A stretch of 37,298 nucleotides of DNA from a virus: the IMG/VR virus record IMGVR_UViG_3300006104_000742, positions 1 through 37,298 of that record; one strand, given 5' to 3'. Both the position numbers and the translations under genes were made by a program. The notes beneath the pieces were generated by a model that worked only from the letters and a program-made list of their open reading frames with translations, had not been told where the DNA came from and did not search any database. Positions 684 through 32,691 of the stretch are shown piece by piece (within the stretch, counting starts at the first letter, position 1; every line of letters begins with the position of its first letter).

Positions 684-3359
684 ATGACTGATTATAAAGT
701 CCTTGTCGGAAAAACAAAGATGCCTTTAAAACAACAAAAAGGTATTGAAAAAAAGATGGTTGATAATTGGCAGAATGTTTATAACGATATTCGTCAAAAA
801 AGAAAAAACAATGAAACTTTTGTTCTTCATGATGGACCACCATACGCAAATGGTGATATTCACATTGGTCATGCTCTAAATAAAATCATTAAAGATATTA
901 CTGTTCGTTATCAGGTTCTCCTCGGAAAAAACATTCATTATCAGCCTGGGTGGGATTGTCATGGGCTTCCTATCGAATGGAAAGTAGAAGAAAAATATCG
1001 TAAAAATAAAATGAATAAAGATGATGATGTCATTGCGTTTCGTGACGATTGCCGAAAATATGCATCTGAATGGCTAGATAAACAGCGAGAACAGTTTAAA
1101 ACACTCGGCGTTCTTACTGATTGGTCAAATCCATATTTGACTATGAATTATTCGTCTGAAGCTGAAACTGTTAGAAAACTTCATGCGTTTTTGATGCAAG
1201 ATATGATTTACAAATCATATCGACCAGTAATGTGGTCACCAATTGAAAAAACTTCACTCGCGGAAGCAGAAGTGGAACATCATGACATTAAAACAGATTC
1301 GATGTATGTTGAGTTTCCTTTGGTGACAAAAACTTCTGATGGTAGTGGCTGGATCGACACAAAAGGAGCTTCTGTTGTTATTTGGACTACAACTCCTTGG
1401 ACTTTGCCAGCAAATCGAGCAGTGGCATATTCTCAAACAATTGATTATGTGTTAGTTGATGCTACAAAAAATAATACAACTAAACAATTTGTTATTGCTG
1501 TTAATTTAATCAACGACTTTGAGAAAAATACAGGTTTTTCTTGTGTAGTAAAAACTACATTTGATCTTAGTGATGCCATTCTTCTGCATCCAATCTATAA
1601 AACTGAACGCCCTTTGTTGGCGGCTGATTTTGTTAAAGACGATGTTGGAACTGGTTTTGTACATATTGCCCCGGCCCACGGCGAAGATGACTTTAAATTA
1701 GGCAAAAAATATCAATTGGATTATGAAAGTTCGGTTGATGATGATGGTTTAATGACATTGGAACCATTTAAAGGAATTCATGTTTATAAGGGAAATGATG
1801 CAGTAAAAGAAGAACTTGGCGATAATCTTGTTGCGATTCATACTATTACTCATTCATATCCTCATAGTTGGCGTTCAAATAAACCTATTATTTTCAAAAC
1901 TACGCCACAATGGTTCATTAGTTTAGAACAATTACGTCAAAAAAGTTTAGATGCACTTGAAAATGTCGAGTTCGTACAAAATGTTGGTAGAAATCGTATC
2001 ACAACTATGTTGAAAAATCGTGGGGACTGGTGCATTTCTAGACAACGATCTTGGGGTGTTCCATTGATGCTATTTGTTGATAAAAATGGAAACATTTTAA
2101 AAGACGAATCTGTAAACACGAAAATTTATGAGACTGTAGAAACTCTTGGTTGTGATGCTTGGTTCAACCTGCCAAATGAATATTATCTTGGTAAGATGGC
2201 AAATGATTATACGAAAGTTATGGATGTTCTCGATGTTTGGTTTGATTCTGGATCAACTTTCTCATTTACTTTGGAAAAAGAAGGTTTATTTCCTGCTGAT
2301 TTATACCTCGAAGGTTCCGACCAACATCGAGGGTGGTTTCAGAGTAGTCTTTTAATTGGTGTAGCATCAAATAATGTTGCCCCATATAAAAAATTGTTAA
2401 CACATGGTTTCGTACTGGATGGAAACGGCATTAAAATGTCAAAATCAAAAGGAAATGTTATTAATCCAGATGATGTAATCACCAAATATGGTGTGGATGT
2501 TCTTCGTGTTTGGGTTGCATCTTCAGACTATACGGATGATGTGCGTTTATCTATGAATAATATTGAGACGACAGTTTCTGATGTGCTGTCAAAATTACGC
2601 AATACACTTCGTTTTATTATTATGAATTTAAATGATAATGCGAAAGTTGAAAATATTGAATATAACAATATGCCAGAATTGGAAAAATTCATGTTATATA
2701 AAGTTTTTCAACTCAATAAAAATCTTATGGCGTATTTAGAAAATTATGAATATCATAAAATTTTAAGTGAATTGCATAAATTCTGTTCAGGTGATTTATC
2801 ATCCTATTATTTTACTATGAAAAAAGATAGTTTATATTGCGATGGTGAAAAATCATTAACAAGAATGTCTTGTGTAACTGTACTTAATATTTTATTTAAT
2901 TTTTTAACAGAATGGCTTTCACCAATCATTCCATTCACTATTGATGAAATCCATCAACTTCGCAATGATTGTAATTCTGGTGATGTATTTTTAAAATCGT
3001 TCTCTAATGTTCCAGAAGAATGGGGTACTTATAATGATTTGGAAAAATGGAATGTATTAAATGATGTTCGAAATACAGTCTTGGTTGAAATCGAAAAATT
3101 ACGTTCTTCCAAAGAAGTTGGATCTTCATCGGAAGTTATTGTTGGGACTTGTTTATTAAATGATATTGATACAACAGGAATTAATTTGAATGATTTTTTT
3201 GGTGTTTCCGCAGTATCTTTACTAAAAGATAAAACTGAAACTAATGAAATGATTGTTAAAAAAATAACAGGAGAAAAATGTCCGCGTTGTTGGACATATC
3301 ATCCAAAATTAGAAAATGATTTATGTCCAAGATGTAATGATGTTGTATTGAAGGGATAA
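684..3359 (+). CDS. ileS: Isoleucyl-tRNA synthetase
   Basis: Class I synthetase that charges tRNA-Ile with isoleucine. The HIGH signature is at residues 60-63 within GPPYANGDIHIGHALNK, and KMSKS is at 584-588. The C-terminus carries two CPRC pairs (866-869 and 881-884), the zinc-binding end typical of bacterial IleRS. At 891 residues it is near the usual 900-940, so catalytic, CP1 editing and anticodon-binding regions all appear present. The ATG at 684 follows a weak purine-rich site (AGGATAG). The next gene starts two bases after its stop, suggesting an operon with the unknown protein and the Nudix gene. A full IleRS is rare in phages and suggests modification of host translation. Confidence 0.96.
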   Translation: MTDYKVLVGKTKMPLKQQKGIEKKMVDNWQNVYNDIRQKRKNNETFVLHDGPPYANGDIHIGHALNKIIKDITVRYQVLLGKNIHYQPGWDCHGLPIEWKVEEKYRKNKMNKDDDVIAFRDDCRKYASEWLDKQREQFKTLGVLTDWSNPYLTMNYSSEAETVRKLHAFLMQDMIYKSYRPVMWSPIEKTSLAEAEVEHHDIKTDSMYVEFPLVTKTSDGSGWIDTKGASVVIWTTTPWTLPANRAVAYSQTIDYVLVDATKNNTTKQFVIAVNLINDFEKNTGFSCVVKTTFDLSDAILLHPIYKTERPLLAADFVKDDVGTGFVHIAPAHGEDDFKLGKKYQLDYESSVDDDGLMTLEPFKGIHVYKGNDAVKEELGDNLVAIHTITHSYPHSWRSNKPIIFKTTPQWFISLEQLRQKSLDALENVEFVQNVGRNRITTMLKNRGDWCISRQRSWGVPLMLFVDKNGNILKDESVNTKIYETVETLGCDAWFNLPNEYYLGKMANDYTKVMDVLDVWFDSGSTFSFTLEKEGLFPADLYLEGSDQHRGWFQSSLLIGVASNNVAPYKKLLTHGFVLDGNGIKMSKSKGNVINPDDVITKYGVDVLRVWVASSDYTDDVRLSMNNIETTVSDVLSKLRNTLRFIIMNLNDNAKVENIEYNNMPELEKFMLYKVFQLNKNLMAYLENYEYHKILSELHKFCSGDLSSYYFTMKKDSLYCDGEKSLTRMSCVTVLNILFNFLTEWLSPIIPFTIDEIHQLRNDCNSGDVFLKSFSNVPEEWGTYNDLEKWNVLNDVRNTVLVEIEKLRSSKEVGSSSEVIVGTCLLNDIDTTGINLNDFFGVSAVSLLKDKTETNEMIVKKITGEKCPRCWTYHPKLENDLCPRCNDVVLKG

Positions 3360-8992: not shown

Positions 8993-9022
8993 TTGACCAT
9001 ATATGTATTTATATGTTATATT
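8993..9022 (+). promoter_or_regulatory. Promoter for the ThrRS gene
   Basis: TTGACC (8993-8998) and TATATT (9017-9022) with 18-base spacing (17 if TTATAT is used) lie upstream of the ThrRS ribosome site. From 8850 to 8990 no further gene or signal is supported. Confidence 0.5.
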
Positions 9023-9057
9023 ATGTCTTTAATAAACAACTAAGAGGTATTATAAAA

Positions 9058-10245
9058 ATGGTTCATCGTGAATTAGGACAACAACTCGATTTATACCACA
9101 TCGAAGAGCACTCAGCTGGCATGATATATTGGCATCCAAAAGGAACTAAAATTTTTAATGCCATTCAAAATTATATGCGTCAAGTTCATGAAGATCATAA
9201 TTATAATGAAGTAAGAACACCTATTCTTGTTTCAAAATCATTATGGGAAACCTCCGGTCATTGGCAAAAATTCAAAGAAAATATGTTTCTTGTTAAAGTT
9301 GAAGACGAAGCAACCATTAAAGAAATGGCACTCAAAGCTATGTCATGTCCAAATCATATTGAATTATTTGATCATACGAATCGTTCATATCGTGAACTAC
9401 CTATGAGATATTTTGAATTTGGTATGGTTCATCGTAATGAATCATCAGGATCGATGCACGGACTTATGCGAGTAAGAAACTTTACACAGGATGATTGTCA
9501 TATTATATGTAGAGAATCGCAAATTTTAGAAGAAACAAAAAATTATATAGAAATGCTTAAAAAAGTTTATTTGCATTTTGGATTTGATAAATTTATTGTA
9601 AAATTGTCAACTCGTCCTGACAACCATTTTGGTTCATCTGAAATGTGGGACAAATCAGAATCTGCTCTGGCGAATGCGTGTGATTCTGTTGGGTTGTCAT
9701 ACGAAATTCAACCAAATGAAGCAGCATTTTATGGTCCGAAACTAGAATTTACTCTTTTTGATAATCATGGTCGTCCTTGGCAATGCGGAACCATTCAACT
9801 TGATTATCTTCTTCCGTCGAAAGAACGATTTAATATGAAATATACAAATGAAGAAGGTAAAGATGAACAGCCAGTTATTCTTCATCATGCTGTTCTCGGA
9901 TCAATTGAACGTTTTATTGGTATTTTGCTGGAAAATACAGAAGGACAACTACCACTGTGGCTGGCACCTACTCAGATTGCTGTTGTTCAAGTTTCAGAAA
10001 AGTCAAACGAATATGCTAATATGATATATAAACAAATTCAAAATAATAAATTAAGAGTTATTTTGGATGATTCTAACGATACATTAAGCAGTAAAATCGC
10101 TTTACATTCATCAGTAAAAATACCATATATTATTGTTGTTGGGGAAAGAGATGCGATAGCAAACACAATAGCAGTTAGAAAATTTGGCGATAAAAAACCA
10201 ACTGTCATGACTTTAACAGATTTTTTAAATAGTTTGACAATATAA
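9058..10245 (+). CDS. thrS: Threonyl-tRNA synthetase core (no editing domain)
   Basis: 395 residues from the chosen start; bacterial ThrRS is about 640. The protein begins at the catalytic domain: motif 1 region around NEVRTPILVSKSLWETSGHW, MSCPNH (95-100), motif 2 at about 115-127 (RYFEFGMVHRNE), PNEAAFYGPKLEF with the conserved Y-G-P-K, CGTIQLDY, and motif 3 GSIERFIGILLE near 290. The C-terminal anticodon-binding domain (LPLWLAPTQIAVVQV onward) is complete. The N-terminal TGS and editing domains are missing, so misacylated Ser-tRNA-Thr would not be cleared in cis. The ATG at 9058 is chosen over 9013 because AAGAGGT precedes it. Confidence 0.95.
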   Translation: MVHRELGQQLDLYHIEEHSAGMIYWHPKGTKIFNAIQNYMRQVHEDHNYNEVRTPILVSKSLWETSGHWQKFKENMFLVKVEDEATIKEMALKAMSCPNHIELFDHTNRSYRELPMRYFEFGMVHRNESSGSMHGLMRVRNFTQDDCHIICRESQILEETKNYIEMLKKVYLHFGFDKFIVKLSTRPDNHFGSSEMWDKSESALANACDSVGLSYEIQPNEAAFYGPKLEFTLFDNHGRPWQCGTIQLDYLLPSKERFNMKYTNEEGKDEQPVILHHAVLGSIERFIGILLENTEGQLPLWLAPTQIAVVQVSEKSNEYANMIYKQIQNNKLRVILDDSNDTLSSKIALHSSVKIPYIIVVGERDAIANTIAVRKFGDKKPTVMTLTDFLNSLTI

Positions 10246-10261: not shown

Positions 10262-10290
10262 AATTAAACAATTTGAAAAAGGAGATGGCA

Positions 10291-10785
10291 ATGTCTGACG
10301 AACAAGAAAAGAATATGGTATGTTATATTATTGCCAGATCAGATCTGCGAAGTATGAACGAAGGGAAATTAGCGGCACATGGGCAGCATGCTGGCGTACA
10401 AATGGTCGCAAAATATTATGATCATCCTGATGTTAAGGAATATATTCGACTTGGATTGGAACATGGGGCTGATTTTTTTAATACTACGCTGTGTGTTGAA
10501 GCAGATAAAGCAACATTGGAATTGGTTGTCGAAATGTCCAAACGGCTTGGATATTTGGCGGATACAGTTGTAGATCCATCATATCCTTACTTTGCTGATA
10601 AAGAAACTGTTGTTGCTTTGGGCAGTCCATATGTTAAAGAATATCGTGACGGAAAAGTTTTGATGCTTCGACCTGAACTTACTTTTGGTTGGGTATTGGG
10701 TGACAAAAATGATCCTGTGTTTGATGGTCTCATGGCGAAGTTTCCGTTGCGTGATTATAATAAATTGATTTATACTTTGAAATGA
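10291..10785 (+). CDS. Pth2-like peptidyl-tRNA hydrolase
   Basis: 164 residues from the chosen start. The N-terminal segment MVCYIIARSDLRSMNEGKLAAHGQHAGVQMV matches the Pth2 pattern of R-x-DL...G-K-x-A-[AQ]...HA; the central LCVEADKATLELVV and GYLADTVVDPSYPYF fit the rest of the fold. Pth2 enzymes release peptides from peptidyl-tRNA and recycle tRNA, which suits the synthetase neighbours. The first ATG at 10273 overlaps its ribosome site (AAAAAGGAG), so ATG at 10291 is chosen. The stop overlaps the next start (ATGA). It could also be a Pth2-fold protein with another activity. Confidence 0.75.
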   Translation: MSDEQEKNMVCYIIARSDLRSMNEGKLAAHGQHAGVQMVAKYYDHPDVKEYIRLGLEHGADFFNTTLCVEADKATLELVVEMSKRLGYLADTVVDPSYPYFADKETVVALGSPYVKEYRDGKVLMLRPELTFGWVLGDKNDPVFDGLMAKFPLRDYNKLIYTLK

Positions 10786-16734: not shown

Positions 16735-18318
16735 ATGACAATAAAATGCGAAATATGTAATAAAGAATTTGATAAACAAATAACAAACAGTCATTTAAAA
16801 ACTCATAATATGACTACAACTGAATATAAATTGAAATATGGGAATGAAAGTCTTTCATCTAAAGAATATCGCCAAGAATTGTCATATAAAACACAAGGAG
16901 AAAATAATCCAAATTTTGGAAATAATTGGTCTCCAGAACAAAAAAATGATTTGAGCAATAAAAATAAAGGAAAACAAGCATGGAACAAAGGAATGCCGGC
17001 AACAGATAAACAAAAAGAAAATCAAAGAAAAACAATGTTAGAAAAATATGAAAATGGTTATGAAAATTGGAATAAAGGAAAAAAATTATCTGTAGTGACT
17101 AAAGATAAAATTGCAATGTCAATTAAAGAATATGCCAGTGAACATAAAGATGAATTAACAGTAAGAGCATATAAAGCAATCGAAACAAAAAAAGAAAATA
17201 ATATTGATTTGGCTTTTTTTAGAGGAAAAAATCATAATAATACTACACTAAATTTGATGTCTCAAAAATCAAAAGAATACTGGAAAGAAAAAAACAAAAA
17301 TAAATACAATAATTATAAAGAAAAAATATATAATTTGGGTTTTGATTTATTATCAGAAAACTTAAATGGAAAAATAAAAATAAAATGTCATTGTTGTGGT
17401 AGTGAATTTGAAAGAAATCTTCAAGTATTTTTCGACTCAAAATATCATGGTTATATTTGTAAAACTTGTCATCCAATAAATATTCCGGAAACAGAAATAA
17501 GTGAATTTTTAAAATCATTGGATATTAAATTTGAACAAAATAACAAATCATTAATTCCGCCAAAAGAAATTGACTTTTTTTTACCTGATTACAATTTGGC
17601 AATAGAATATTGTGGTCTATATTGGCATTCTGAATTAGTTGGTAAAAATAAAAATTATCATCTTGACAAATATAAATTATGTCAAGAAAAAAATATTCGT
17701 CTCATAACAATTTTTGAAGATGAATGGGTTTTCAATAAAGAAATATGTAAAAATAGACTCAAACATATAATAGGTCTTAGTCAAAAAAAAATATATGCAA
17801 GAAAATGTATTATAAAAGAAATATCAATAACAGAAACAAAAGAATTTATAAATCAACACCATTTACAAGGATATAACAATTCAAAAATCAAAATAGGATT
17901 ATTCTATAATGAAATGCTTGTTGGTTGTATGACATTCTCAAAAATGTCAATATCAAAAGGCGGAAAACCCACATTAAACGAATGGGAATTGTCTCGTTTT
18001 TGTGAATCTATAAGAATTGTTGGCGGTGCAAGTAAATTATTAAATTATTTTGTAAAAACATACAAACCAAAATCTATTATTAGTTATGCAGATAAAAGAT
18101 GGAGTAATGGAAATTTATATAAATCAATAGGTTTTGAACAATTAAATGATACCCCACCAAATTATTGGTATATCAATCTTCAAAAAAGAATTCATAGATT
18201 TGTTTTAAGAAAAAAATCAGAAGAATCAAAAGAAAAAACAGAATGGGAATTAAGACAAGAAGAAGGATGGAATAGAATTTGGGATTGTGGTAGTATGAAA
18301 TTTATAATGATTGTATAA
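16735..18318 (+). CDS. Free-standing homing endonuclease (Vsr/PD-(D/E)XK-like)
   Basis: 527 residues. Order: an N-terminal C2H2-like finger (C5, C8, H20, H24), a NUMOD3-like stretch (NPNFGNNW...NKGKQAWNKG), a second zinc-ribbon (CHCCGSEF...CKTCH), a nuclease core at about 277-302 (KEIDFFLPDYNLAIEYCG then LYWHSE), IFEDEW, and a C-terminal domain (QHHLQGY...GLFYNEMLVGCMTF...VGGASKLLNYF...SYADKRWSNGNLY) that looks like an acyltransferase-type fold. Such enzymes cut intronless alleles and spread themselves and neighbouring DNA. The C-terminal half is shared with the minus-strand gene at 20288-21937. It is inserted between sheath and tube genes. The ATG follows CCAAGGAACAATT. Confidence 0.88.
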   Translation: MTIKCEICNKEFDKQITNSHLKTHNMTTTEYKLKYGNESLSSKEYRQELSYKTQGENNPNFGNNWSPEQKNDLSNKNKGKQAWNKGMPATDKQKENQRKTMLEKYENGYENWNKGKKLSVVTKDKIAMSIKEYASEHKDELTVRAYKAIETKKENNIDLAFFRGKNHNNTTLNLMSQKSKEYWKEKNKNKYNNYKEKIYNLGFDLLSENLNGKIKIKCHCCGSEFERNLQVFFDSKYHGYICKTCHPINIPETEISEFLKSLDIKFEQNNKSLIPPKEIDFFLPDYNLAIEYCGLYWHSELVGKNKNYHLDKYKLCQEKNIRLITIFEDEWVFNKEICKNRLKHIIGLSQKKIYARKCIIKEISITETKEFINQHHLQGYNNSKIKIGLFYNEMLVGCMTFSKMSISKGGKPTLNEWELSRFCESIRIVGGASKLLNYFVKTYKPKSIISYADKRWSNGNLYKSIGFEQLNDTPPNYWYINLQKRIHRFVLRKKSEESKEKTEWELRQEEGWNRIWDCGSMKFIMIV

Positions 18319-19952: not shown

Positions 19953-20291
19953 TTATTTAGTTGAGTCACCAAATATATCCTTGAATTTACCAAGTAGTGT
20001 TATAGTCCAACCCTTGTATATCTTATTGTCTTTACAATAATTTAATAAACTACCACGATTTAATTTAAATACTTCGCAGAATTTATCTAAAGCACTAGTC
20101 TTTATAAAATAATCTTTACCTTCAGGTGATGTGATTTTATATACAAGTTCTTTAGATAATCGCATGTTTGCTTTTGTTTTTTCCGATATGGTTTTCCCTA
20201 TATTTCCTTGTCTTATTTTTTCGATGTGTTCTGAAGATTTTTTCTTTCCTGACATCGTTTTGCTTATTTTATTTTTAGTTTCCTCGTTCAT
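19953..20291 (-). CDS. NUMOD-type DNA-binding protein, companion of the endonuclease
   Basis: 112 residues. The N-terminus (NEETKNKISKTMSGKKKSSEHIEKIRQGNIGKTIS) is made of NUMOD3-like repeats, and the rest (VYKITSPEGKDYFIKTSALDKFCEVFKLNRGSLLNYC) resembles a NUMOD1/helix-turn-helix element. These are the DNA-recognition modules of GIY-YIG and HNH homing endonucleases, but no nuclease domain is present. Its start overlaps the endonuclease stop (ATGA, 20288-20291), so the two are co-translated. It abuts dda without a gap. It may be a detached specificity subunit or a remnant of another endonuclease. Confidence 0.75.
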   Translation of the reverse strand: MNEETKNKISKTMSGKKKSSEHIEKIRQGNIGKTISEKTKANMRLSKELVYKITSPEGKDYFIKTSALDKFCEVFKLNRGSLLNYCKDNKIYKGWTITLLGKFKDIFGDSTK

Positions 20292-21937
20292 TTTACTACT
20301 ATCAATTTAAATCTTAATTTTCCACAATCATATATACGACCTAGCCCCATTTTTTTTGTTATTTCTGTTTCTGTTTCTGAGACGTCAACATCTTTTAATT
20401 TTGATTTTCTAAAATTATATTTGTGTAATCTTCTATTTCCTTTTACATAAGAATAATCTGGTGGTACTACACCATCATCTTCAAAACCAAGGGTTTTATA
20501 TAAATTTCCATCACTCCATCTTAAATCTGCATATGTTATAATTAAATCAACAATATTATTTTTTATAAAATAATTAAGTAATTTAGATGCACCGCCAATA
20601 ACTGATGCTCCATTTGTAGCAAAACGGACTAAATCAAAAATATCATTATAACCAATATGTCTTTTATATGCTTCTTTTATTTTATTAAATGACATAATAG
20701 CTACAATTTCGTTATTATATTTTAATCCATAAGTTATTGATGTATTACTACTATTTTGTTGCAAATGATGTTGTTTTATGAATGCATAATATTCTTTATT
20801 TGATATTTGTATAATTTCACATTTTCTTGCATAAATTATATTTGTGTTTTGTTTTAAAATATGTTTAATAACTGATTTACAAGTATCTTGATTATTTAAC
20901 CATTCATCTTCAAATATTGTAAGAAGACGTATTCCCTTTTCATTACATGATTTGAGTTTATTTGCATGATAATTTTTATCTGCAATATTAACATCTGAAT
21001 GCCAATAAAGCCCACAATACTCTATTGCCAAGTTATATTCAGGTAAAAATATGTCTAATTCCTGTGGGGATATTTCAAAACGATCATTTATTTTTATTTC
21101 TGTATCAACTATAGATTTTATATAATCGATTATTTGTTGATGACCATATGATATAACATGATTTGTTATATGAATGTTGTTAATTTTAAATATTCTATAT
21201 AAAGTTGATGGATGTACCTCTAGTTCATCTGCTATCTGTGATAAACTTTTTATTTTACTTTCGTTTTCAAGCCATACTTGGTCGTTCATCTTTTTAAAAC
21301 TATCAGGTTTGATATGTATTTGATTTTGATGTTCCACCCCATATTTTTTCATATAATTTTGTTTTTTCAGTAATAATATTTTCTCATCATTGGATGGATT
21401 CATAAAACCAGTTAATTCAAAATATGATTTTCTTGCAATATGCATTGACGTTTCCTGACCATATTTTTCTAAATTGGTTTTCTTTATTTTATCTTTGATT
21501 TTTTCTGATGCAAAAACATTTTCAGAACCATATCTTTCAAGATTTGTTTTTTTTATTTTTTCTTGAATTTCTTGATTGAGTAGATGTGTTTCTACCCCGT
21601 AAATTTGTAAACAAGTCGCTTTCGTTTTTTCTTTGACGCCATCATTTTTAGAGGCAACATCAAATCCATAACGTTCAATATTTGTTTCTTTTCTTTTGTT
21701 TTTAATATCTATATTTTGTTGCGTCCATTCACAACCATATTTTTCAAGATTCGTTTTTTTTTGTTTTTGTTTTGTACTTTCTAATTGTGCTGTGCTTACT
21801 ACTCCAAATCTTGCAAGATTTTTCTGTCTCATCATTAATTTAAAACCTTCGCATTTATCTTTAATTTTGCTACAACATTGTTTACCATTTTTAAAAATAA
21901 AATTAGCTTCTTTTCCACACCCGTAATCACATAACAT
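20288..21937 (-). CDS. Free-standing homing endonuclease with N-terminal repeat array
   Basis: 549 residues. An N-terminal cysteine cluster (CDYGCGKEANF...CCSKIKDKC) is followed by about six copies of a 30-40-residue repeat built on K-K-T-N-L-E-[KR]-Y-G, then a helix-turn-helix (SLSQIADELEVHPSTLYRIFK, about 214-234). The nuclease core is at about 292-315 (QELDIFLPEYNLAIEYCG then LYWHSD), followed by IFEDEW and the C-terminal domain shared with the gene at 16735 (QHHLQ...VGGASKLLNYF...TYADLRWSDGNLYK). The repeats probably read DNA sequence in tandem. AAAAGGAAAAATT precedes the ATG at 21937. It is oriented opposite to its paralogue, so the pair brackets dda and the RNA. Confidence 0.88.
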   Translation of the reverse strand: MLCDYGCGKEANFIFKNGKQCCSKIKDKCEGFKLMMRQKNLARFGVVSTAQLESTKQKQKKTNLEKYGCEWTQQNIDIKNKRKETNIERYGFDVASKNDGVKEKTKATCLQIYGVETHLLNQEIQEKIKKTNLERYGSENVFASEKIKDKIKKTNLEKYGQETSMHIARKSYFELTGFMNPSNDEKILLLKKQNYMKKYGVEHQNQIHIKPDSFKKMNDQVWLENESKIKSLSQIADELEVHPSTLYRIFKINNIHITNHVISYGHQQIIDYIKSIVDTEIKINDRFEISPQELDIFLPEYNLAIEYCGLYWHSDVNIADKNYHANKLKSCNEKGIRLLTIFEDEWLNNQDTCKSVIKHILKQNTNIIYARKCEIIQISNKEYYAFIKQHHLQQNSSNTSITYGLKYNNEIVAIMSFNKIKEAYKRHIGYNDIFDLVRFATNGASVIGGASKLLNYFIKNNIVDLIITYADLRWSDGNLYKTLGFEDDGVVPPDYSYVKGNRRLHKYNFRKSKLKDVDVSETETEITKKMGLGRIYDCGKLRFKLIVVK

Positions 21938-22923: not shown

Positions 22924-22931
22924 GATAAATA
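22924..22931 (+). promoter_or_regulatory. Late promoter box before the tube-like gene
   Basis: GATAAATA lies 31 bases before the ATG and forms the left half of a palindrome (TGATAAAT-A-ATTTATCA, 22923-22939). AAGAAGGA precedes the ATG. Confidence 0.5.
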
Positions 22932-28725: not shown

Positions 28726-28733
28726 TATAAATA
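28726..28733 (+). promoter_or_regulatory. Late promoter before terminase part 1
   Basis: Exact TATAAATA 32 bases before the ATG at 28766. Confidence 0.75.
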
Positions 28734-28765: not shown

Positions 28766-29140
28766 ATGGCAAGTCAAATGCCCGATGTTGTTAAAAGAGC
28801 ATTTCAAAAAGATAAATTCACAGTCAATAAGGTTGAAGAATTAGAAAAATGTATGGATGATCCCATATATTTCGCAAAAAAATATGTCAAAATACAGCAC
28901 TCCACAAAAGGCATGATTGATTTCACTATGTTTGATTATCAGGAAGAAATGATCAACATATTCCATAAACATACCAGAAGTATCATATTGGCAGGTAGAC
29001 AGTTGGGAAAATGCTTATGCTATTCTACAATATTAACACATAATAAGTCAAAAGTCAAATTTTCTAACATAATAAAACTCAATATAAAACAACGACTTGT
29101 AGCATATTTAGAAGAATTATTGTTAAAATTAGCAAAATAA
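28766..29140 (+). CDS. 17: Large terminase, part 1: N-extein plus intein-1 N-half
   Basis: 124 residues. The first 82 match the gp17 N-terminus (DPIYFAKKYVKIQHSTKGMIDFTMFDYQEEMINIFH) and end in IILAGRQLGK, the first part of Walker A. The next residue is Cys (29012-29014), starting CLCYSTILTHN, an intein block A. The intein N-half is 42 residues and ends at the stop codon. The protein alone cannot be an ATPase; it needs trans-splicing to part 2, which begins TTCAAAYIIW and restores GRQLGKTT. The ATG at 28766 follows AGGTGA; an in-frame GTG at 28757 is rejected. Confidence 0.92.
   Translation: MASQMPDVVKRAFQKDKFTVNKVEELEKCMDDPIYFAKKYVKIQHSTKGMIDFTMFDYQEEMINIFHKHTRSIILAGRQLGKCLCYSTILTHNKSKVKFSNIIKLNIKQRLVAYLEELLLKLAK
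29012..29137 (+). other. Split intein 1, N-half (42 aa)
   Basis: Begins with the nucleophile Cys1 and block A (CLCYSTILTHN). No block B is present: the half stops after a basic, leucine-rich segment (LVAYLEELLLKLAK). The usual split site, between blocks B and F, would give about 90-120 residues, so the break here is unusually early. Confidence 0.85.
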
Positions 29141-29162
29141 CAACATAATTCCTTGCCGAAAT

Positions 29163-29170
29163 GATAAATA
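29163..29170 (+). promoter_or_regulatory. Late-type box before the endonuclease in the terminase gap
   Basis: GATAAATA lies 32 bases before the endonuclease ATG at 29203. Confidence 0.45.
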
Positions 29171-29202
29171 ACTATAATGATTTATCGTTTATGAGGAATA
29201 TT

Positions 29203-30459
29203 ATGACTGCAAAATTAACTACTGAAGAATTTATAAAAAGATCAAAAGAAAAATTTAATAATACATTTACCTATGAAAAAACAATATGCATTAATTCAAC
29301 AACACCATTAATAATTACTTGTAATAATATTGATTTTGAAATAACGCCACAAAGACATTTAGAATCATCCACTGGTAAAATTATAATCACAAAAAATAAA
29401 TTATCGAGAAGTTGTTCTATCTGCGGGGAAATGATGATCACAGAATCAAAAACTGATTTAAGCGGTTTTATTCAGCATGGAAAAGAAAAACATCCCGGTT
29501 ATTTTTTAGGAGCATTACCAGAATATAAATGGATTGAAAAGAAATATTATAATCCTATTAACCAAACTTGGTATGGATCAAGACTTTATTTGTCAAGATC
29601 ATTAACTAAATTAGGAATTTCCAATGAAGAATATTATTTGAAGTATGGCGAACAATATATGCCTGAAGAATGGAATAAAAATAACAATCATTCTATATTG
29701 GGTAATGCACACAATCATAATAAGTGTATAGAATGCGGTGAAAAACTTAAATTTGATGATGGTCATTGGGAATATCCTGCATTTTGTTCAAATACAAAAT
29801 GCAATATTAATTGGTATAATAGAAATACTAAAAGACATAAAATAGCAGGTGATAGTATTAAAAAAACATTATTAGAAAATAATGATGTTTTGCCAACTCA
29901 AATAGGATATTGGCTTAAACAAGGGATGAATCAAGAAGAAGCAGAAATAAAATTGAAAGAACGTCAACAGACATTTACCTTAGAAAAATGCATTGAAAAA
30001 TATGGCGAAGATAAAGGAATAGAACGATTTAATAAAAGACAAATGTTATGGAAAGAAAGTCTTAAAAAATCAGGAATGTATTGCGGATACTCAATGGTTT
30101 CGGAAAAATTATTTGAAGAAGTAGAAAAAACAATACCAAATATATTTTATGGTAAAAATGAAAAAGCAATATGGATTAATGAAAAAAAAGTTATTTGGGT
30201 TGATTGTTTAGAACAGAGCAAGAAAAAAATCATTGAATTTTATGGCGATTATTGGCATGGAAATCCAAATAAATATAAACCAACCGATTTAATAAAATAC
30301 ATGAAAGGAATCATTACTGCAGAAGACAAATGGAAAATTGATGTTGAACGAATAAAATTATTGGAATCAAAAGGTTATAAAGTATTAATAATATGGGAAT
30401 CTGAATATGTCGAAAATCCTAATTTAGTAATAGGAAAATGTATAGGATTTTTAATGTGA
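29203..30459 (+). CDS. Vsr-like homing endonuclease located in the terminase break
   Basis: 418 residues from ATG 29203, chosen because GAGGA lies six bases upstream; the ATG at 29161 has no site. The N-terminal region (KLTTEEFIKRSKEKFNNTFTYEK) is a DNA-binding domain common in phage endonucleases; a zinc-type CSICGE and a second CIECGEKL...FCSNTKC follow. The nuclease core is C-terminal: VIWVDCLEQSKKKIIEFYGDYWHGNP and later VLIIWESEYVENP, the Vsr-like pattern described for endonucleases found in fractured, split-intein genes. It presumably cuts an intact terminase allele at the intein-1 site. Its 3' end directly abuts the gene for part 2. Confidence 0.88.
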   Translation: MTAKLTTEEFIKRSKEKFNNTFTYEKTICINSTTPLIITCNNIDFEITPQRHLESSTGKIIITKNKLSRSCSICGEMMITESKTDLSGFIQHGKEKHPGYFLGALPEYKWIEKKYYNPINQTWYGSRLYLSRSLTKLGISNEEYYLKYGEQYMPEEWNKNNNHSILGNAHNHNKCIECGEKLKFDDGHWEYPAFCSNTKCNINWYNRNTKRHKIAGDSIKKTLLENNDVLPTQIGYWLKQGMNQEEAEIKLKERQQTFTLEKCIEKYGEDKGIERFNKRQMLWKESLKKSGMYCGYSMVSEKLFEEVEKTIPNIFYGKNEKAIWINEKKVIWVDCLEQSKKKIIEFYGDYWHGNPNKYKPTDLIKYMKGIITAEDKWKIDVERIKLLESKGYKVLIIWESEYVENPNLVIGKCIGFLM

Positions 30460-30470
30460 TAAATACTGTG

Positions 30471-30905
30471 ATGAAGAAATTTTTAATAAAAATAATACAA
30501 GGAATTTTATGGTTAATTGATTCCGATCATCGTATCAAAGAAGAAATTGATATGGATGATATGAAAAAGTTTACTGATATACAAAATGTATCATTTGAAT
30601 CTGATTTTGGTCATGTATCAAAAGTGTTTAGAACTATTCCATATGAAGTATGGGAATTAAAAACAACAAATCATAGTTTATATGGAGCAGATAAACATAG
30701 GGTTATTAATGAAAATCATGAATGTATTTGGATGCAAGATTTAAAACCTGGTGATAAAATAAAAACAGATACTGGTATTGAAGAAGTTATATCATCAAAA
30801 TCCTTAAATATTAGAACTCATATGTATTGTATACAAGTAGATACAGAAAAATCAGAAGATATAAACAATCATTTATATTATGGCGATGGGATTCTAAGTC
30901 ACAAT
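30471..30905 (+). other. Split intein 1, C-half (145 aa)
   Basis: Contains DIQNVSFES, then IPYEVWELKTTNHSLYGADKHRV with the block B histidines, DLKPGDKI, and the C-terminal blocks F/G ending in DGILSHN, His-Asn before the extein Thr. Block B lies on this half, confirming that the split is in the N-terminal part of the intein. Confidence 0.85.
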
Positions 30906-31583
30906 ACCACTTGTGCGGCAGCATATATTATATGGAGAGCAATGTTTGTTCCAGATCAGACAATATTAATTGTGGCAAATAAGCAGGTTCAAGCATTAGA
31001 AATTATGGATCGTATAAGATATGCCTACGAAACATTACCTGATTGGCTTAGAGCTGGTGTCAGAGAATATAATAAAGGAACACTCACGTTTGATAATGGA
31101 TCACAAATTGTATCACGTGCTACTGCAGGGGACGCAGGTCGTGGTCTTTCGATATCTTTATTATATGCCGATGAATTTGCATTCGTTAGAAAAAATATAG
31201 CTCATGAATTTTGGTCTGCCATTTTACCAACACTATCTACTGGTGGGGATTGTATTGTTACATCGACACCAAATAGTGATGAGGATCTATTTGCAGAATT
31301 ATGGTTTGGTGCAGCACAAGTATTTGATGAAAACGGCGAAGAAATTCCAAATGGAATAGGAAGAAATGGTTTTAAAGCACTTAAAGTAAAATGGGATGCA
31401 CATCCAGAACGTGGTGAAGATTTTGAGAAAAAATTCAGATCACAACTTGGGGACGAAACTTTTGAACGCGAATTTAATTGCCTGCTGCACAATTCTATCA
31501 TAGAAATTATTGATTGTCAAGATAAAAAATCGCAGATTTCCATAGGTGATTTATTTAATAAATTAAAATTCGGTGATAAATAA
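30471..31583 (+). CDS. 17: Large terminase, part 2: intein-1 C-half, ATPase core, intein-2 N-half
   Basis: 370 residues. Residues 1-145 are the C-half of intein 1, ending GDGILSHN. The extein (191 residues) starts TTCAAAYIIWRAM, completing Walker A. It carries the gp17 ATPase motifs: SRATAGDAGRGLSISLLYADEFAFV with Walker B and the catalytic Glu, and IVTSTPNSDEDL (coupling motif). It ends ETFEREFN, followed by Cys1 of intein 2 (31479-31481), CLLHNSIIEI, and a 34-residue N-half. The ATG at 30471 is chosen over an upstream in-frame ATG inside the endonuclease gene; its ribosome site is weak, so coupling to the endonuclease stop is likely. Confidence 0.92.
   Translation: MKKFLIKIIQGILWLIDSDHRIKEEIDMDDMKKFTDIQNVSFESDFGHVSKVFRTIPYEVWELKTTNHSLYGADKHRVINENHECIWMQDLKPGDKIKTDTGIEEVISSKSLNIRTHMYCIQVDTEKSEDINNHLYYGDGILSHNTTCAAAYIIWRAMFVPDQTILIVANKQVQALEIMDRIRYAYETLPDWLRAGVREYNKGTLTFDNGSQIVSRATAGDAGRGLSISLLYADEFAFVRKNIAHEFWSAILPTLSTGGDCIVTSTPNSDEDLFAELWFGAAQVFDENGEEIPNGIGRNGFKALKVKWDAHPERGEDFEKKFRSQLGDETFEREFNCLLHNSIIEIIDCQDKKSQISIGDLFNKLKFGDK
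31479..31580 (+). other. Split intein 2, N-half (34 aa)
   Basis: Starts with Cys1 in CLLHNSIIEIIDC and ends LFNKLKFGDK at the stop. Length and pattern (C...I-E...I-x-[ED]-L-[FY]-x-[KR]-L) resemble the very short N-half of the AceL-TerL atypical split intein. Confidence 0.85.
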
Positions 31584-31584
31584 T

Positions 31585-31920
31585 ATGAATGAATATATTG
31601 AAAATAATCAAGGATATAAAATACTAACAGAAAATGGTTATAAATCATTTGCTGGCATAGCATATATGGGCGATAAACCTATTTATAGAATAGTTTTTAA
31701 TAATTCATGGTTAGAATGTACAATTAATCATCGTGTTATTGACTGGAAAGGCGAAGAAATATTTGTCAGTGACCTGAAACAAGGTGATAAAATACTATCA
31801 TTGAAAGGCGGATATTCAGTTGTAAAAGAAATTACTGATACAGGAAAAATTGAAGCAGTTTATGATATTATTGATGTTGATGGTCATAAATTCTATGCGA
31901 ATAACATATTAGTTCATAAC
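31585..31920 (+). other. Split intein 2, C-half (112 aa)
   Basis: Begins MNEYIENNQGYKILTENGYK, has CTINHRVIDW with the block B T-x-x-H, DLKQGDKI, and ends VYDIIDVDGHKFYANNIL-VHN. The +1 extein residue is Cys. Start, length and layout parallel the AceL-TerL C-half (about 104 residues). Confidence 0.85.
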
Positions 31921-32691
31921 TGCGAATTTATTATTGCTGATAATACATTAATTTCATCTGCATTTTTGAAAGATGGTTTCATAGCAAAACCAGAAATATT
32001 TAAAACAGGACATATACGCTGGTATTCTGAAATAAAACCAAATAAACAATATGCCATAACACTCGATCCTGCAATGGGAACTGGTCACGGCGATTATGCT
32101 GCTATTCAAATATTTAGTTTACCAGATATGGAACAGGTTGGTGAATGGAGAAGTCAAATTGCACAGCCACATGAGCAAGTTCGAATATTACTGCAAATAT
32201 TAACATTTATATATAATTCATTAAAAAATAATTCAGAACATTTTGGTGATCCAGAAATATACTGGACAGTTGAAAACAATTCACTCGGAGAAGCTGTATT
32301 AACCATTATTGATGATACTGGTGAAGATAATTTCCCAGGATGGTTTATACATGAACCTAAAAAAAGTGGCATGGGTCGCAGAAGAAAAGGTCTTAATACA
32401 AATAAAAGAAGCAAATTATTAGCTTGTTCAAAATTAAAACATCTTATAGAAACAAGAAAAATGATAATAAATTCAAAATTTTTAATATCCGAACTTAAAA
32501 CATTTGTATCCCACAGTGATTCTTTTGCTGCAAGTCAGGGAGCAAATGATGATCTTGTTTCAGCAACATTGCTTATAGTTAGAATAATAGGTATTATAAC
32601 ACAATCAGATGCTGATTTATATGAACAATTAAATGATGCTATAGACCTTGATGACACAGCAGATATGGAACCCATGCCTATTGTTTTTTAG
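31585..32691 (+). CDS. 17: Large terminase, part 3: intein-2 C-half plus nuclease domain
   Basis: 368 residues. The first 112 are the C-half of intein 2, ending NNILVHN. The extein starts CEFIIADNTLISSAFL and contains the gp17 RNase H-like nuclease domain: ITLDPAMGTGHGDYAAIQIF (first Asp), WTVENNSLGEAV (Glu) and GANDDLVSATLL (last Asp). Joined to parts 1 and 2 it gives a terminase of about 529 residues. The ATG at 31585 begins one base after the part 2 stop, so coupling is likely; a GTG at 31573 inside part 2 is less likely. Confidence 0.92.
   Translation: MNEYIENNQGYKILTENGYKSFAGIAYMGDKPIYRIVFNNSWLECTINHRVIDWKGEEIFVSDLKQGDKILSLKGGYSVVKEITDTGKIEAVYDIIDVDGHKFYANNILVHNCEFIIADNTLISSAFLKDGFIAKPEIFKTGHIRWYSEIKPNKQYAITLDPAMGTGHGDYAAIQIFSLPDMEQVGEWRSQIAQPHEQVRILLQILTFIYNSLKNNSEHFGDPEIYWTVENNSLGEAVLTIIDDTGEDNFPGWFIHEPKKSGMGRRRKGLNTNKRSKLLACSKLKHLIETRKMIINSKFLISELKTFVSHSDSFAASQGANDDLVSATLLIVRIIGIITQSDADLYEQLNDAIDLDDTADMEPMPIVF

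Follow-up and report, generated by a model that had tools for sequence, protein, structure and literature searches.

A phage large terminase gene in three parts, with the halves of two predicted split inteins

Split inteins in phage large terminase (TerL) genes are already known, and so are fractured genes. In fractured genes a conserved phage enzyme gene is cut by a split intein and a free-standing endonuclease gene lies in between; the cases described by Dassa et al. in 2009 were reportedly broken in two. Among atypical TerL split inteins, published lengths of the N-terminal intein half (IntN) are 25 and 37 aa (PMC11766414), and splicing of three segments has been presented as an engineering scheme (PMC12707363). 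Here, in a 37,298-base virus fragment (IMG/VR record IMGVR_UViG_3300006104_000742, positions 1 to 37,298; hereafter the window) that carries myovirus structural genes (tail sheath, tail tube and terminase), we found that the TerL-coding sequence is doubly split: three genes within positions 28766–32691 together hold one TerL, with intein halves flanking each of two breaks.

Intein 2, at the second break, resembles AceL-TerL, GOS-TerL and Cat, the consensus of the AceL- and GOS-TerL inteins: it lies in the same type of host gene, has Cys at +1 and an atypical split near its N-terminus that leaves a very short IntN (34 aa), and its C-terminal half (IntC2) is similar to CatC and matches other inteins as well. 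We take the AceL-TerL intein to sit at the same codon. In contrast to these systems, the window has another split intein, of a different lineage, at Walker A (intein 1), so that three chains are needed. Break 1 resembles a fractured gene in that a free-standing endonuclease-like gene, of weakly assigned family, lies between the intein halves; unlike the fractured genes described, which are reportedly broken in two, the window has two breaks in one gene, and break 2 holds no endonuclease gene, with only 1 nt between the stop ending at 31583 and the ATG at 31585.

Four open reading frames (ORFs) run in the same direction across the region: ORF1, an endonuclease-like ORF, ORF2 and ORF3 (Table 1). 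The original prediction had described three adjacent genes; the three part-genes are present, but parts 1 and 2 are separated by the endonuclease-like ORF. Its two split inteins and three polypeptides are borne out by matched halves at both breaks, and its junctions GRQLGK^TT and EREFN^CEF are exact in the sequence. At break 1, ORF1 reads GRQLGK^CLCYST and ORF2 reads GILSHN^TTCAAAY; at break 2, ORF2 reads EREFN^CLLHNS and ORF3 reads NILVHN^CEFIIADNT. The usable start of part 3 is the ATG at 31585, directly behind the part 2 stop. A second record (L002, IMG/VR 3300025648_000149) is 100% identical to the window record across 12,393 bases, and the split gene is thus no assembly slip of a single contig.

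The joined exteins come to exactly 529 aa, against the roughly 529 residues first claimed. A single unbroken alignment pairs them with the TerL of Sinorhizobium phage Phosso, whose gene is uninterrupted (56.7% identity, query 7–529, 99% coverage). Neither joint is gapped in an eight-row alignment with intact TerL. T4 gp17 structures are matched at E about 1e-55; Walker A GRQLGKTT aligns with gp17 SRQLGKTT, Walker B LLYADE aligns with the gp17 DE motif, and the nuclease acidic residues D322 (LDPAMG) and D483/484 (NDDLV) also align. E391 is invariant among relatives, at a position outside the gp17 alignment coverage. An ATPase domain with Walker A and B and an RNase-H-like nuclease with three acidic residues place the joined product in the T4-gp17 type of TerL.

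Table 1. Positions of the TerL parts, the intein halves and other features (window coordinates unless another genome is named)
Feature	Position	Strand	Basis or remark
ORF1: extein 1 and IntN1	28766–29140	+	
TerL extein 1, 82 aa, ends in Walker A GRQLGK	28766–29011	+	PHROG 5989, terminase large subunit, E = 2.7e-20
IntN1, 42 aa; Cys1, short atypical IntN, hydrophobic C-terminal segment; stop 29138–29140	29012–29137	+	45% identity to the L003 N-half
Homing-endonuclease-like gene between intein 1 halves; open from ATG 29161, likelier start ATG 29203, 41 nt after TGATAAATA	29203–30459	+	Weak Pfam MTES_1575/DUF559 (PD-(D/E)XK/Vsr-like); PHROG 22677, unknown function
ORF2: IntC1, extein 2 and IntN2	30471–31583	+	
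IntC1, 145 aa, ends GILSHN; N-terminal helix; Cys at block F:4 (C2:4)	30471–30905	+	AlphaFold2, Foldseek, 40-row alignment
TerL extein 2, 191 aa: TTCAAAY, Walker B LLYADE, EREFN	30906–31478	+	Terminase_6N, E = 9e-12 (Pfam); TerL hidden Markov model (HMM), E = 4e-99
IntN2, 34 aa, Cys1; stop 31581–31583	31479–31580	+	Sequence
ORF3: IntC2 and extein 3	31585–32691	+	
IntC2, 112 aa, ends NILVHN	31585–31920	+	PDB 6dsl (CatC), E = 3.5e-7; weak Pfam intein match; same-site relatives L008, L009, L208–L220
TerL extein 3, 256 aa: CEFIIADNT, RNase-H-like nuclease domain; stop 32689–32691	31921–32688	+	Terminase_6C, E = 1e-5 (Pfam); TerL HMM, E = 4e-98
T4-late-promoter-like octamer TATAAATA, about 40 nt before the TerL-1 start	28726–28733	+	7 on + strand against 5.5 expected in the window; position suggestive, count near chance
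Translation genes	1–615, 684–3359, 9013–10245, 10273–10785		
SCTP-2 TerL pieces: extein 1; gene 267; gene 224	429.5 kb; 256.4 kb; 216–218 kb	–; +; –	
Four TerL genes of the 306-kb contig (L251–L254)	around 184–186, 168–171, 229–232, 199–203 kb	both	

Both inteins have the features of split inteins: a predicted HINT fold, a Cys, Ser or Thr at residue 1 and again at +1, a closing (His)Asn, and halves that belong to different chains. For IntC1, which has no significant sequence match in the PDB, we turned to structure: an AlphaFold2 model from the 40-row alignment has a mean predicted local distance difference test score (pLDDT) of 90.2, and Foldseek against the PDB matches the VidaL intein best (6vgv, E=4.8e-7) and dozens of other inteins as well; IntC1 is thus predicted to take the HINT fold. 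A model of the whole middle chain was poor (pLDDT 58 from 8 rows) and was set aside.

We consider it very probable that a T4-gp17-type terL was invaded at two codons by two intein lineages, each now split near its N-terminus, and that trans-splicing yields the 529-aa motor. Three late polypeptides would be made, IntN1 would pair with IntC1 and IntN2 with IntC2, and each HINT domain would form, excise itself and join its exteins. The two reactions could run in either order; nothing imposes the sequence of steps that was first supposed. In the history we propose, homing inteins reached conserved active-site codons, accumulated and fractured one by one: an endonuclease gene would have been inserted in the intein-coding region and split the gene, and at the second site the endonuclease gene would later have been lost, or the split arose without one. 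Such a gene would persist because the phage cannot do without TerL and trans-splicing gives it back, not for any known benefit to the phage. The IntC-extein-IntN topology is the one used for making cyclic peptides. Since the middle chain has this order (IntC1-extein 2-IntN2), cross-pairing would circularise it, and the two inteins must presumably be mutually selective.

Several points weigh against this reading. Splicing, its yield and orthogonality are predictions from the gene sequences, and the endonuclease identity comes from weak profile matches and position. At break 2 the frames are one base apart, much as they would be in a contiguous mini-intein with a frameshift. An intact TerL may exist in this phage beyond the 37-kb fragment. 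Finally, searches for double splits were seeded with intein halves, so that no frequency can be stated.

If the second break were a mere one-base frameshift, real or from sequencing, in a contiguous mini-intein, the gene would be split only once. ORF2 and ORF3 do overlap by 14 nt stop-to-stop, one frame apart, and a single base would join them; however, the second record is identical over 12.4 kb, ORF3 owns an ATG directly after the ORF2 stop, and about 30 other loci have a split at this site, including ones whose ORFs nearly abut (–5 nt, L218), lie 43 nt apart (L208) or are separated by full endonuclease genes (L008 and L009). We therefore regard a frameshift as very unlikely.

The endonuclease-like gene in break 1 has homologues at the corresponding place in L003, L012 and L013, and suggests that mobile inteins were broken up when endonuclease genes inserted, as in fractured genes. 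Such a gene would also be at home in a group I or II intron, and introns are known in phage terL (PMC10448857), so that RNA splicing rather than inteins might join the parts. In contrast to what this would lead one to expect, an Rfam intron search of the window gave no match, IntC1 is in frame with extein 2 and has a predicted HINT fold and an SHN^T junction, and break 2 leaves no room beyond its single nucleotide; RNA splicing has next to no probability in our view. Two further free-standing endonuclease-like genes (Vsr/MTES_1575-like) lie among the tail genes, at 16735–18318 (+) and 20288–21937 (–), one with a Mom-like domain and one with DUF7487 repeats.

With a TerL profile made from 88 intact relatives, we mapped TerL pieces in all fetched loci. 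The best 80 matches of a TerL-alignment search were nearly all uninterrupted because the ranking favours one-piece matches, and they served as an intact reference set, not as a frequency. For intein searches, a ten-row alignment of site-C and site-B IntC sequences was too divergent as a query, and a three-row alignment worked. Insertions recur at three sites, here called A (at Walker A, reading GK^T/S), B (at Walker B) and C (where intein 2 of the window lies). The states range over intact genes, contiguous inteins with or without an inserted domain, splits with an endonuclease gene and splits without one; L009 has a site-C split with an endonuclease-like gene, and its near relative L218 has the same split without. 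Nearly all distinct site-A insertions have GK^ with Thr or Ser at +1, and Cys stands at +1 in 30 of the 30 site-C insertions.

The double split, first taken for a singular oddity, recurs. Splits at A and C occur in the window and L002, in L144, in L148 (with the truncated L153), in L174/L175, in L218/L219 and in L230–L232, on six separate branches of the TerL tree (Fitch count 6), although repeated loss would look alike. Splits at A and B occur in L003 and in Salicola phage SCTP-2. L003 is 66% identical to the window; split A, which the two have in common, holds an endonuclease-like gene in L003, and the IntC sequences are 69–70% identical, as conserved as the exteins. For its second split intein, L003 uses Walker B instead (LLY^CDE), where a further endonuclease-like gene lies. 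A 306-kb contig (IMGVR_UViG_3300035665_000001, source of L206) has its TerL spread over four scattered genes, on both strands, and interrupted by three split inteins, one each at A, B and C; all junctions are intact (SRQMSK^C, SHN^TT; FVY^C, SKN^CDE; EFE^C, THN^CAF) and no further TerL was found in the record. Splitting of TerL at two sites, or in one relative at three, thus seems to recur and to have gone largely undescribed.

We also built a tree of 78 C-halves, in which the inteins of site A group together (support 0.98) and away from those of sites B and C, except that one site-B intein falls within the group. Two separate intein lineages would provide a basis for selectivity and fit site-specific homing. 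Between the window and L003, nonsynonymous divergence (dN) of IntC1 is 0.21 against synonymous divergence (dS) of 0.88; between L148 and L153, IntC1 has dN 0.09 against dS 2.4 and IntN1 has dN 0.10 against dS 0.67. Judged by these ratios, which are rough because synonymous changes are near saturation, both intein halves are under purifying selection.

Two cultured phages with complete genomes bear on whether the parts are used. Agrobacterium phage Atu_ph07 (490 kb) has only a site-A-split TerL gene (ASV44708 and ASV44707); it shares the split intein of the window and its position in Walker A to the codon, with a C-half 51% identical to that of the window and hydrophobic segments in both halves; unlike the window, it has a single split, with 11 nt between the annotated genes and no endonuclease gene. 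Its genome paper makes no mention of inteins (PMC6102473). Salicola phage SCTP-2 (440 kb; L024, L025 and L042) has a TerL divided among three genes and no other; the genes lie as much as ~210 kb from each other. It shares with the window the two split inteins; it differs in having the second split at Walker B, the genes ~39 and ~173 kb apart on both strands, and an extra contiguous intein, which lies in gene 224. Gene 267 of SCTP-2 runs on unusually far beyond IntN-B; this tail is similar to a portion of the IntC-B core and is perhaps a relic of splitting.

These genomes speak to whether the three pieces are a decayed, broken terminase, with an intact copy elsewhere or a co-infecting phage packaging the DNA. 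The 37-kb fragment, in which we found no intact TerL, leaves room for such a copy; against decay, however, all splice-junction residues and terminase motifs are intact, the intein halves evolve as if under purifying selection, and no intact TerL was found in complete Atu_ph07 and SCTP-2 or in long contigs of 457 kb and 242 kb, the latter (L219) with the same A and C double split and no other TerL. We give decay a very slight chance. As complete split-gene relatives lack an intact TerL, trans-splicing is very likely needed. Both cultured phages were isolated on a host, indicating that their TerL is made by trans-splicing or is active in pieces; activity in pieces is unlikely because Walker A is cut between K and T.

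The original prediction also proposed that the split times packaging to late infection. As an adapted control, trans-splicing would gate the motor until all parts are made late, and late-promoter-like motifs do lie before TerL-1 and ATG 29203 and close to the TerL-2 and TerL-3 starts. Their counts are barely above chance, however (GATAAATA occurs 7 times against 4.0 ± 2.0 expected), on the tree, split TerLs occur scattered among intact ones, and the sisters window and L003 differ in their second split site. The timing proposal is thus unsupported, and adapted gating is improbable. ATAAATA-type motifs lie at 22924, 24531, 25525, 26365, 28727, 29163 and 32699 (+), mostly 34–44 nt before start codons; the window has 24 on the + strand and 8 on the – strand, and the longer motifs are about as frequent as chance predicts.

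With few exceptions, site-A inteins have Cys1 together with an Asp at block F:4. Of the eight members of the window's site-A clade, seven carry Cys there, in the motif HMYC (the window, L003, L011/L012, Atu_ph07, L135, L137 and L139) and L136 has Ser; Thr (L003) or Ser (Atu_ph07) at residue 1 is confined to this clade, and its members have a hydrophobic segment ending IntN and a hydrophobic helix opening IntC. We hypothesize a shift toward class-3-like chemistry together with a hydrophobic docking device. AceL NrdHF was the first reported naturally split class 3 intein, with none among 1701 others (PMC7891396). Intein 1 shares with it the Cys at C2:4 (block F:4); unlike AceL NrdHF, it retains Cys1, has Ser rather than Thr at C1:5 and Val rather than Trp at N3:12, and is split near its N-terminus. 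By its residues, intein 1 itself is by definition not class 3, since Cys1 is kept and the WCT triad is incomplete. A broader proposal is tentative: that in some large phages two or three split inteins, each selective for its own partner, join three or four chains into the motor, and that the window's clade evolved docking helices in both halves and a C2:4 Cys that carries out the initial step, so that residue 1 could change to Ser or Thr in a class-1-to-class-3 shift.

The open-access literature that we searched holds no report of a naturally doubly split TerL or of a natural three-chain protein with two split inteins; priority is not certain because key subscription papers lie outside that literature. 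The arrangement would extend natural protein trans-splicing from two-part to three- or four-part assembly of one essential enzyme, and would mean that phages already had to keep split inteins mutually selective, a problem on which protein engineers work. It also offers a source of new short-IntN inteins and a natural series for gene breakage, which runs from intact genes and contiguous inteins through splits with and without an endonuclease gene to double, triple and dispersed forms, and it warns that such genes will be overlooked or wrongly counted where phages are classified or annotated by TerL. Sinorhizobium phage AP-J-162, for which three terminase genes are listed (gp002, gp005 and gp648; PMC11242549), possibly has another TerL in pieces.

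Other interrupted genes turned up among the loci. Campylobacter phage CP21 (L028, 1106–5413) has three TerL inteins: one contiguous at Walker A, a split one at Walker B whose halves flank a GIY-YIG-like gene, and a third, contiguous, just after. In L018 (4071–11985), genes for a DnaB-like helicase and an SMC/gp46-like ATPase appear to be split at Walker A by related split inteins, and a Vsr-like endonuclease gene adjoins each of these two interrupted P-loop genes. The window, in which no tRNA genes were found, carries translation genes: a piece of a class II synthetase (GlyRS-like), IleRS, a short ThrRS-like protein without N-terminal editing domains, and Pth2.
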